Shown here: one piece after another, positions 32,264 through 35,573 of the stretch | How the letters are laid out: every line of letters begins with the position of its first letter | Position numbering within the stretch: the first letter of the stretch is position 1 | From: Fragilaria crotonensis | Lineage: Eukaryota; Bacillariophyta; Fragilariophyceae; Fragilariales; Fragilariaceae | DNA length: 64,000 bases | Direction of reading: 5' to 3' | Assembly (NCBI GenBank): GCA_022925895.1 | Contig: JAKSYS010000881.1 | Span: 434,001 to 498,000, forward strand | Translations under genes and position numbers: made by a program | The notes under the pieces: generated by a model | The model's input: only the letters and a program-made list of their open reading frames with translations | What the model was told of the DNA's origin: nothing | Databases searched by the model: none

Positions 32264-34222
32264 ATGACAACACGAGCTTTCGACGAGACTCAGAACTGCA
32301 ATTTCAACATCCCTCAAGAGGACATATTGAAGATCCTGAGTCCACCTAAGCGCGAATCTTCGTATCGATGGAAGAAACGGAGTCGAAATGATCAGTTTTC
32401 GCTGTTGGAAACCATTGTAGACCATGTGAATAGCTTAAACGACGACTTGTTTCTGTACGTGATGCGCTTCATCGTACCCGAATCTGGTGATGTCGATGGA
32501 GAATCACTTCGAAACATGTCACAAGTGTGCAAACAGTGGTACGGATTGGTAAATGCACCTTCCTTATGGACATCCCCAACAGTCGACCCGACGGCTCCAG
32601 ACATTGCGGGACCGCTCATTGGGTATCGCAAGGTTGAAAAACTAAGATGTCTCTGGAAGCAGAACCCTACTTATCGAGTGGTAGATCGAGCAACAAATCA
32701 AGTCTACCTCGTACGAATTATGGACCACACGAGCCCAGAGGCTCTTCGACACATTGGATACACCAATGATCTCTTGTCCGGCGCATTGCTGCACGAGGCT
32801 CCACCTGAGATGAAGGCAGCTTTCCTATTTCCCGTGCGCATGAAAATTCCAGCAAAAAGCTCCAAGGTTGTTCTTTGGTATGACGACTGCGAACAAACGT
32901 TGCAGGACTGGTTTGATACGAGTGATCGGTGTCGGAATCCGGTGTTTTGTTCTGAACCACCACAGGTGCTTCCCGTTCCGTTAGAACAGCTCAAAAATTG
33001 GATGCGACAATTGCTGACTTCATTCATCCTCCTTCAGAACCATGGTGTTCCATATTTCGATGCTTGGGCCAAACCAGAAAACATTTTCATGGACAAGAAC
33101 TCATCGAGACTACGGATTGCCTTGCCAGAGATTGCTACGACTGCGCATATTGTTGATAATTACATGCACGTTCCGCCATGGAAAGCAAACCCTGACCTGT
33201 ATGAATTGGGGTGCATTTTCTCGACGATGGCGAGATCTGGGAGCAGAGCACCGGCTGTTCCAAGCGAAGAAAGCGCTTATAATAAATGGCTAAACGATGA
33301 ATTTCCCGCTCTGGACGATCTTGGTCGAACCTTTCTTCGAATTGTGTTTGACCATGAATTGAGAAAGCATGTCGACCCAGCTTCTAGGTCTTGCACTCCT
33401 GAAGAAGCATTGGCTCATCCATTCCTTCATCCCCAATCTAATGGCCGCCCAATCCAAACTGGTAGCGATTCCATCTGGAAGCGCAAACTATCGTTGGAAT
33501 TGACTGTTCAACCAAAACGACGAGTTGTTAGTCCTTTTGAATGGGCAGCTCTTGTCGACTGGGTGGTCGAAGTGTGTACTGTGTTCGAGGTCGGCGAATT
33601 GGCTGCCTTCCGAGCGATTGCGTACTTTGATCGAGTGATGAGCGGCACACCAAATCACTTTCGTCGAAGCCACTACCAAGTCCTTGTTGCCGCTTGCCTC
33701 CTCATTGCAAGCAAGATCACCGGAAACATCTCAATCGCGCCGTCTGATCTAGCCAACTGTGCTGATAACTCATTTGAAGCAGATGGACTTGTTGTGTACG
33801 AACAATACATTCTTGAAAGGCTCGAATGGAAGCTTATGTCACCGACATCACTAGAATTCGCAATGGCCATTTCCGAATCAACCACTAACACGCCCCGGGA
33901 AGCTGCCATTCACTACAGTGTCGTTGTCTTCGCGTTGCAAACCGAGCTCTATCGAAGCTACCCGGCTTCGATTATCGGGGCGGCCGCTTCTGTTGTCGCA
34001 AAATATTGTGTGCAACGACCGCTTTGGGACGCGTGCACAGAGAAGGAAACCGGCATTGCGCTTCTAGACCTTCAATCACCTGTCTCAAGTCTCTGTACCG
34101 AAGTGAATGAAATTCTTTCCAATATGTCAGATTTAAAGGCGATCGCCCGTTCGTTTGCTGTCGAAGACTTTGGAGCGCGCTCGATTCCAAGAGTGCTAGA
34201 CCTACAGCACTATCGACCTTAA
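32264..34222 (+). CDS. F-box, pseudokinase and cyclin fusion protein
   Basis: 652 residues in one uninterrupted frame. The ATG at 32264 has a good context (ACCATGAC); the frame upstream offers no other ATG. Domains in order: an F-box-like helix set at about 58-102 (LNDDLFLYVMRFIV ... MSQVCKQWYGLVNAPSLW); a kinase-like fold at about 135-392, ending in the typical CTPEEALAHPFLHP; and two cyclin boxes at about 425-520 (ALVDWVVEVCTVFEVGE, YQVLVAACLLIASK) and 525-630 (LIGAAASVVAKYC-like). The kinase has KPENIFMDKN where HRDLKPEN is expected, so Trp268 stands in place of the catalytic Asp; it also has Arg for the VAIK Lys, no glycine loop and no DFG, and is surely inactive. The parts suggest a substrate adaptor for an SCF ubiquitin ligase that also binds a CDK. 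I know no named protein with this order. Confidence 0.85.
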   Translation: MTTRAFDETQNCNFNIPQEDILKILSPPKRESSYRWKKRSRNDQFSLLETIVDHVNSLNDDLFLYVMRFIVPESGDVDGESLRNMSQVCKQWYGLVNAPSLWTSPTVDPTAPDIAGPLIGYRKVEKLRCLWKQNPTYRVVDRATNQVYLVRIMDHTSPEALRHIGYTNDLLSGALLHEAPPEMKAAFLFPVRMKIPAKSSKVVLWYDDCEQTLQDWFDTSDRCRNPVFCSEPPQVLPVPLEQLKNWMRQLLTSFILLQNHGVPYFDAWAKPENIFMDKNSSRLRIALPEIATTAHIVDNYMHVPPWKANPDLYELGCIFSTMARSGSRAPAVPSEESAYNKWLNDEFPALDDLGRTFLRIVFDHELRKHVDPASRSCTPEEALAHPFLHPQSNGRPIQTGSDSIWKRKLSLELTVQPKRRVVSPFEWAALVDWVVEVCTVFEVGELAAFRAIAYFDRVMSGTPNHFRRSHYQVLVAACLLIASKITGNISIAPSDLANCADNSFEADGLVVYEQYILERLEWKLMSPTSLEFAMAISESTTNTPREAAIHYSVVVFALQTELYRSYPASIIGAAASVVAKYCVQRPLWDACTEKETGIALLDLQSPVSSLCTEVNEILSNMSDLKAIARSFAVEDFGARSIPRVLDLQHYRP

Positions 34223-34267: not shown

Positions 34268-35128
34268 TTACTGAAAAGCGTTTGCAGCTACGGCCAAGCA
34301 AACTCCAGCCTCCTTCATGTCTTCCTGAAACTGCTCTGCTGCATCTTCAAATCCCGGCACCGCTGATGCACAGTCCGTCAATAAAGTAATCTCGTTTCTC
34401 CTCTCCGACGGCCATCTATGGACAATATCTCGCAGAGTGTAGTTGACACAATGACTCATCGCTTGGCCGCAGACGAGTAGCTTTTTTGACGTAAGCAACG
34501 ACTCCAGCAGTGGTTCATTGAATGACGTTTCCTTCGAGACTGGTACATCAGCTTCCAACGCTGAGTACATTTCTGTCAAAAGGTTCTGTCCCTTCCAGAC
34601 AAACTCGACACTCCCGCCAGTCGCGTCGGACCAATCGTTGAGTGCTCGCCGAACATTGTCTACCATTGAATGCCCATCAGTTCCAATCAAACAATGTTCA
34701 GGCCAGATGCACAGCTTGAACCTTCCCTTGGCTTCTAGCCGCTTCGTGTATTCCTTGGCGTACTCTTGTAAATCCAGAGTAGCGTCGTTGCTACCATCCT
34801 TGGTGGGAACTTCAAAGGCGGTCAGGTCACTGTCCAAAAGCGCCAGCTTGGATCGGGGCTTCCATTTGCCGCTCAGGACATCATCATGACTAATGATGGT
34901 GAACGGATCCGGATGATACTTCTCCTCAGCATCCCACCAGAAACAAGGATGAGCAATGTGCAGTTTGTGATGCGAGTCTAGGGTGGCAACAACCCGATCA
35001 ATACTAGAGCTGTGGTTTCGAATCAGTTGGACGATACGTTTCGCATCATCGTCGGCCGTCGGAATCGCGAGCGATCCGTCTGGATGAAAGTCTTTTTGAA
35101 GGTCAATTAAGAGGAGTGTCGTCGTCAT
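34268..35128 (-). CDS. Nicotinamidase / isochorismatase-family amidohydrolase
   Basis: The start is the ATG at 35128 (286 residues); upstream only GTG is in frame. The sequence LIDLQKDF supplies the catalytic Asp9, DSHHKLH (51-57) the metal-binding Asp and His residues, WPEHCLIGTDGHSM (142-155) the nicotinamidase WPxHCxxGT block, and MSHCVNYT the nucleophile Cys227. This matches PNC1/PncA-type nicotinamidases, which convert nicotinamide to nicotinate in NAD salvage. It is longer than the bacterial enzymes, with an insert around residues 62-135. Its stop is only about 45 bases from the end of the cyclin-fusion gene, tail to tail. Confidence 0.85.
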   Translation of the reverse strand: MTTTLLLIDLQKDFHPDGSLAIPTADDDAKRIVQLIRNHSSSIDRVVATLDSHHKLHIAHPCFWWDAEEKYHPDPFTIISHDDVLSGKWKPRSKLALLDSDLTAFEVPTKDGSNDATLDLQEYAKEYTKRLEAKGRFKLCIWPEHCLIGTDGHSMVDNVRRALNDWSDATGGSVEFVWKGQNLLTEMYSALEADVPVSKETSFNEPLLESLLTSKKLLVCGQAMSHCVNYTLRDIVHRWPSERRNEITLLTDCASAVPGFEDAAEQFQEDMKEAGVCLAVAANAFQ

Positions 35129-35573
35129 TCTTGAGAAAGCAAAGCTTGATCGTGACGATAAGTGTTCTGTGTTCGGATCGACCACGTTGTGACTTAGTCT
35201 CTCGTGGTTCGTGCATGCCCGAATCTATACAGTATTACTCAGCTCTTTGTAGAAGGCGCTTACCAGTACCGGTAGTTGACAGTTGACACTCGACAGTTCC
35301 GCGAATTCGTGCTCGTTGTGAAAGGCCAACGTGCTCACATCTTGCATCGCTGCGCAGAATCGCGTTCTGCTCTGTGAGTTCCAGAATGCATCATGGTACC
35401 ATAGTCCTTCTTCCTCATTGACAATCGCAATGGCATCAGCCACTTACAAAACGCAACTACAAGTGTCTACCCTGGTGTTTGGGTCCATTCAAACTTATTT
35501 CGTATGGGAATTACTTTATTTGACGGCACAATAACAAAATCCCAGCATCTCTAACAGGAGAACGCAGGGCTTT
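35129..35573. other. Short intergenic region, no gene seen
   Basis: It holds the 5' flank of the nicotinamidase gene and the 3' flank of the peroxiredoxin-like gene. The small frames across it have no conserved features. Confidence 0.4.

Follow-up and report, generated by a model that had tools for sequence, protein, structure and literature searches.

A diatom protein that joins an F-box, a CDK-like pseudokinase and a cyclin in one frame: a putative SCF substrate receptor

Introduction

The F-box protein cyclin F does not bind any cyclin-dependent kinase (CDK) and recruits its substrates through its cyclin domain, as described in excerpts of two papers (PMC5392680; PMC11313846), and its hydrophobic patch is given as MRYIL in the same excerpts of the first (PMC5392680). 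A different arrangement is found in Phytophthora infestans, in which four CDKs carry C-terminal cyclins (PITG_21617 and three others, checked by reverse-transcription PCR) and all four have Asn for Asp in subdomain VIb; the same study also lists relatives from Theileria, from two ciliates and from further oomycetes, and reports that T. pseudonana and P. tricornutum have none (PMC3019232). Here we describe a gene from the diatom Fragilaria crotonensis, lying in a stretch of 64,000 nucleotides (assembly GCA_022925895.1, contig JAKSYS010000881.1, positions 434,001 to 498,000 of the forward strand; hereafter the window), whose single frame encodes an F-box, a kinase-like domain that has lost its catalytic residues and a two-box cyclin. 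By analogy, we read this protein as uniting the idea of cyclin F with the dead CDK-cyclin fusions of oomycetes.

Like cyclin F (FBXO1), a substrate receptor of the SCF (Skp1-Cullin-F-box) ubiquitin ligase, the diatom protein has its F-box N-terminal and its cyclin C-terminal in one chain; choice of substrates through the cyclin would be a further likeness, which for the diatom protein is predicted only. It differs in carrying a CDK-like pseudokinase between the two, whereas we know of no pseudokinase between the F-box and the cyclin of cyclin F. With the P. infestans fusions it shares the order of kinase and C-terminal cyclin, a replaced Asp in subdomain VIb and a stramenopile host. However, those proteins have Asn at this place and are classed as CDKs, whereas the diatom protein has Trp and lacks the other catalytic motifs as well; the F-box is an addition, the word being unmentioned in the main text on the fusions (PMC3019232), which were compared through this published description and on the diatom side by sequence. 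With the diatom-specific cyclins (dsCYC) it shares being a cyclin of a diatom, here one with many cyclins; the F-box goes unmentioned in the main text of the dsCYC study (PMC2872877), and the excerpts of a paper on Plasmodium FBXO1 do not mention a 'kinase domain' (PMC10006092). No fusion of F-box, pseudokinase and cyclin was met among the listed titles and abstract beginnings of the Creative Commons-licensed PMC literature, which is no proof of absence. The first-pass annotation had called a kinase-derived middle between F-box and cyclin apparently new, and novelty can be claimed for the three-part combination alone, because oomycetes already provide an example of a dead kinase with a cyclin at its C-terminus (PMC3019232).

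Results

The gene is present as first described, with the first in-frame ATG at the start of its open reading frame and a product of 652 amino acids (Table 1). Five relatives (P0002 to P0006) are 82 to 41% identical to the window protein (P0001). P0002 to P0005 were found among about 5.8 billion proteins, of which the search scored only the 7998 candidates that shared the largest number of words with the query, so that relatives were possibly missed; P0006 (41% identity) was added with a profile built from them. By alignment, F-box, kinase-like part and cyclin stand in a single frame in four of these five, in the order first proposed; the fifth, P0002, begins inside the kinase-like part, at the position that aligns with residue 153 of P0001. 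Kinase-like part and cyclin are kept in all six sequences, and the F-box segment in all five that extend to it. A fusion artefact or misassembly is rejected because four of the five relatives, on other contigs, have all three parts in frame.

In the diatom's own genome we found no further full-length copy, the other four matches being cyclin-only, and a search with the middle part, taken up to E 10, matched nothing else there. A protein search with residues 50-410 alone returned P0001 to P0005 only and no stand-alone relative of the middle, and viral contigs gave one pattern match and no relative. Cyclin_N matches occur at 27 places in the genome; in the 12 distinct ones of these that were examined, the family F-box was found at the window place only (frames of at least 100 residues, within about 1.5 kb).

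The middle part has a protein kinase fold, for which profile comparison is firm and structure prediction modest. Pfam places Pkinase on residues 238-285 at 14.1 bits, below its cut-off of 31.7, and reports it, also below cut-off, in just two of the six family middles. By hhalign, the middle matches kinases at 98.1% (score 98.2, 221 columns, E 8.7e-14 as a single comparison); 100 column shuffles scored at most 23.7 and the reversed profile 18.2, while the cyclin and F-box parts reached only 0.88% and 0.32% against the same kinases. Shuffles, reversal and the other domains together rule out a chance likeness. An AlphaFold model of the full-length protein from five sequences was unusable (predicted local distance difference test, pLDDT, 33.6). 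The model of the middle alone has a mean pLDDT of 54.5 and a predicted template modelling score of 0.58, and its listed structural matches are kinases. Residues 1-97 of this model are below pLDDT 50 and the N-lobe is poor; ten-residue blocks from 101 to 280 have values of 52 to 87, but 34 and 48 at 181-200. The first-pass annotation had named the absence of a kinase fold from residues 120 to 392 as a finding that would refute it, and neither the model nor its fold matches pointed to such an absence.

On its sequence, this kinase-like domain is dead, its catalytic elements being lost throughout the family. The Lys of VAIK, the Asp of HRD and the Asp of DFG are replaced by Arg (five of the five sequences having this part), Trp (6/6) and Leu, Val or Ile (6/6), respectively. 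Trp268 in place of the catalytic Asp and the absence of DFG had both been noted before and are features of all six members, in which the DFG place reads Leu/Val/Ile-Pro-Glu/Ser/Asp. The Glu of the alpha-C helix is replaced in every sequence (His163 in the window protein, His in five, Gln in P0006), and the neighbouring Arg is lost in two of six. Also present as described is the KPEN of the window protein, but it is not a family feature: P0001 to P0006 read KPEN, TPEN, KPSN, KPEN, KPAN and IPEN, so that Pro and Asn alone are conserved (catalytic-loop Asn 6/6, Lys 4/6). Because only 24 residues separate the DFG place from the alpha-F Asp (Asp311), the activation segment has lost the greater part of its length.

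Among kinases, the pseudokinase leans to the CMGC group and probably to CDKs, a descent that is supported and not proven. In a profile search of the PDB with the middle part, rows 1-54 are CDK4 or CDK2, as are 55 of the best 60 of 93 rows, at E 0.021 and worse; the number of rows weighs less than the absence of any earlier non-CDK kinase, because the PDB is rich in CDK2 sequences. The ten best Foldseek matches to the middle model are CDK2 entries. Of the 50 kinase loci in the genome, seven had no usable frame by motif, and hhalign comparison with the other 43 placed the CDK-like L050 first, the CAMK-like L037 second and the PSTALRE-bearing L026 seventh; from its motifs we take L050 to resemble a CDK5-type kinase. 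In a tree of 39 kinases and four family members (four near-copies or partial rows and P0002 and P0005 omitted), the family falls on one side of a split together with five CMGC rows named beforehand, L028 and L071 with support of 100/97, and its nearest kinase is L050 (87/78). The same split was recovered at 98/94 without L050, and at 100/97 in a third tree from another alignment that also omitted P0006. L028 and L071, which we take from their motifs to be MAPK- and GSK3-like, were not among the rows named beforehand and joined the CMGC group for the later trees and the approximately unbiased (AU) test after the first tree had been seen. That test rejected neither the grouping of the family with five CDK-like rows (p 0.498) nor that with L026 and L050 (p 0.497); it also did not reject a CMGC clade without the family (p 0.326), which allows the family a place just outside CMGC.

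The alpha-C helix bears on the same point. Both hhalign and MAFFT give a gap-free alignment of its sequence, SPEALRHIGYTNDLL, with PSTALREISLLREL of the CDKA-like kinase L026, in which SPEALRHI is in register with PSTALREI. Where CDK2 has the Ile that faces the cyclin, which we take to be Ile49, all six sequences have Leu (Leu161 in the window protein). We read the helix as likely keeping its cyclin-facing side and losing its catalytic side, a reading that rests on the alignment register because model confidence is low in this region. The earlier description of a pseudokinase between F-box and cyclin was right about the anatomy and the dead kinase and had missed the leaning to CDKs.

Two observations concern the kinases used for comparison. 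The open frame of L050 (C321:2662-3360) matches the kinase profile only from position 52 onwards and thus lacks the greater part of the N-lobe, for which an intron or a truncated copy may be the reason. L041, L042, L047 and L055 have HAD or HGD for HRD; L041, L047 and L055 group at 100/100, and L042, with the same hhalign values as L041, was omitted from the tree as a near-copy.

The F-box is recognized both by Pfam and within the genome. F-box-like matches residues 78-105 of the window protein at 25.1 bits (cut-off 24.3), and the matches in P0003 to P0006 stay below the cut-off; when the 12 F-box-like places of the genome are ranked by score, the window F-box comes fourth. Against nine other F-boxes of the genome (two of 11 loci were omitted as near-copies), the family profile reached 96.4% by hhalign with a score of 46.9, compared with at most 19.1 in 100 shuffles, and 0.1% and 0.16% for the middle and the cyclin. 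An F-box-like segment had been assigned to residues 58-102, and the domain is indeed there; what had been overlooked is that the first helix is followed by an insert some seven residues long. The Leu-Pro with which such domains start has not kept its Pro.

A full cyclin, first placed at residues 425-630, is borne out by Cyclin_N (residues 427-524, E 2.4e-19), which is over the cut-off in all six sequences, and by Cyclin_C, over the cut-off in four; the latter gives 19.5 bits in the window protein (cut-off 22) and is not listed for P0006. In the PDB profile search the best E values are 4.1e-16 for cyclin D1, 4.8e-15 for cyclin A2 and 1.8e-11 for cyclin F, which V-cyclin outscores as well, so by this measure cyclin F is more distant from the diatom cyclin than D1 and A2 are. 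In an alignment with cyclin A2, Lys484 (6/6) and Glu513 (5/6, Ala in P0004) occupy positions that we take, from cyclin A numbering, to be the pair contacting the CDK. Of six docking-groove positions assigned in the same way, four are kept in all six sequences (Leu430, Trp433, Glu436 and Gln472) and two are changed in all six (Met to Glu, Arg to Trp). In contrast to the MRYIL patch of cyclin F, as excerpted, the corresponding place reads EWAAL (EWATL in P0006), with E and W in 6/6.

The regions between the domains carry further conserved elements. CDKs phosphorylate the consensus S/T-P-x-K/R, on the strength of which we take SPPK in the N-terminal tail to be a candidate CDK site; SPxK/R stands at this place in all four sequences having this N-terminus (P0001, P0003, P0004 and P0006) and would allow control by a CDK. 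The KKRSRN stretch is a possible nuclear signal. Between pseudokinase and cyclin, S403, K406, R407, K408 and S410 of the S-x-x-K-R-K-x-S motif are invariant in all six sequences, and the motif could act as a nuclear signal or be phosphorylated; in the window protein the linker reads R-K-L-S-L, which presumably resembles an RxL docking motif.

Table 1 Features of the three-part gene, with positions in the window
Feature	Residues	Position	Strand	Basis
Whole gene: N-terminal tail, F-box, CDK-like pseudokinase, cyclin		32264..34222	+	One uninterrupted frame, 652 codons and stop
SPPK	26-29	32339..32350	+	Complete match to CDK phosphorylation consensus
KKRSRN	37-42	32372..32389	+	Basic stretch
F-box	58-106	32435..32581	+	Pfam, genome ranking, hhalign
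Kinase-like domain, catalytically degenerate, CMGC/CDK-leaning	112-390	32597..33433	+	hhalign, AlphaFold, Foldseek, trees
Arg in the VAIK Lys position	151	32714..32716	+	5/5 sequences having this part
Alpha-C helix SPEALRHIGYTNDLL	157-171	32732..32776	+	hhalign and MAFFT, same register
Degenerate catalytic loop DAWAKPEN	266-273	33059..33082	+	Alignment
LPE at the DFG place	287-289	33122..33130	+	hhalign alignment; placement approximate
Linker motif S-x-x-K-R-K-x-S	403-410	33470..33493	+	Alignment of six sequences
Two-box cyclin	424-630	33533..34153	+	Pfam; PDB matches to cyclins D1 and A2

Discussion

We propose that the protein works as an SCF substrate receptor and that its head is a retired CDK-cyclin unit, a reading to which we give about even chances. 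Skp1 matches at five places and Cullin matches at eight, some of them exon pieces, make an SCF receptor possible in this genome, and an adaptor function is plausible. The F-box would hold the Skp1 of an SCF-type ligase. The CDK-like kinase, without its catalytic elements, probably keeps the helix that faces the cyclin; a linker of about 30 residues ties it to a cyclin of its own, on which it would most likely pack where a real CDK would otherwise sit. The composite head, chiefly the docking groove of the cyclin, would then select substrates for ubiquitination, as in cyclin F. Given the leaning to CDKs, the protein may have acquired its kinase and its cyclin together. More tentatively, and on balance doubtfully, an old CDK-cyclin fusion of stramenopiles and alveolates may have lost its kinase activity and gained an F-box to become a ligase receptor, with the dead CDK clamping its own cyclin and the holoenzyme repurposed from phosphorylation to destruction.

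If the cyclin half instead bound a real CDK in trans, an active CDK would be brought to the SCF, phosphorylate the substrate and make the degron, and the pseudokinase would only aid substrate binding. The CDK-contact pair, with Lys484 in all six sequences and Glu513 in five, agrees with such binding and the N-terminal SPxK/R in four of four would suit CDK regulation, but P0004 has Ala at the place of Glu513, a kinase-like domain is already tethered beside the cyclin, and cyclin F, the closest architectural analogue, binds no CDK in the excerpted account (PMC5392680); we consider this arrangement rather unlikely. Another possibility, the one held by the first-pass annotation, is that the middle is a pseudokinase without special CDK ancestry, used for substrate binding or as a scaffold, and that the cyclin was added independently. 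Here the AU result for a place outside CMGC (p 0.326) counts in its favour, as do the matches of CHK2, WNK and ERK2 to the model, with ERK2 and WNK1 equal to any CDK by VIA-align, and the second rank of the non-CDK L037 by hhalign; four lines (PDB profile search, Foldseek, hhalign and trees) favour CDK or CMGC kinases, and we hold an independent origin to be quite unlikely.

Some F-box proteins work outside SCF ligases, and the insert and missing Leu-Pro start of this F-box would fit another Skp1 role or a non-Skp1 role in a stable cyclin-like scaffold. With the domain ranking fourth of 12 in the genome and conserved in all five sequences reaching it, we regard a protein outside the SCF as very improbable.

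If the proposed reading holds, the diatom protein would be a second solution to the problem posed by cyclin F, the textbook proteolysis cyclin without a CDK: here the CDK would be attached but dead. It would offer an answer to how a cyclin can be barred from CDK activation while its docking groove picks proteins for destruction, in a lineage distant from that of cyclin F and ecologically important, and it points to a possible diatom-specific connection of the cell cycle with ubiquitin.

Other observations

The three-part gene lies tail to tail with an isochorismatase-domain gene (34268-35185, reverse strand) at a distance of about 45 bases. Elsewhere in the genome, 18 of 19 listed silicon transporter places are over the cut-off, some of them pieces of one gene, and an open frame of 1456 residues (C97:29749-33762, forward strand) holds three consecutive silicon-transporter domain matches.
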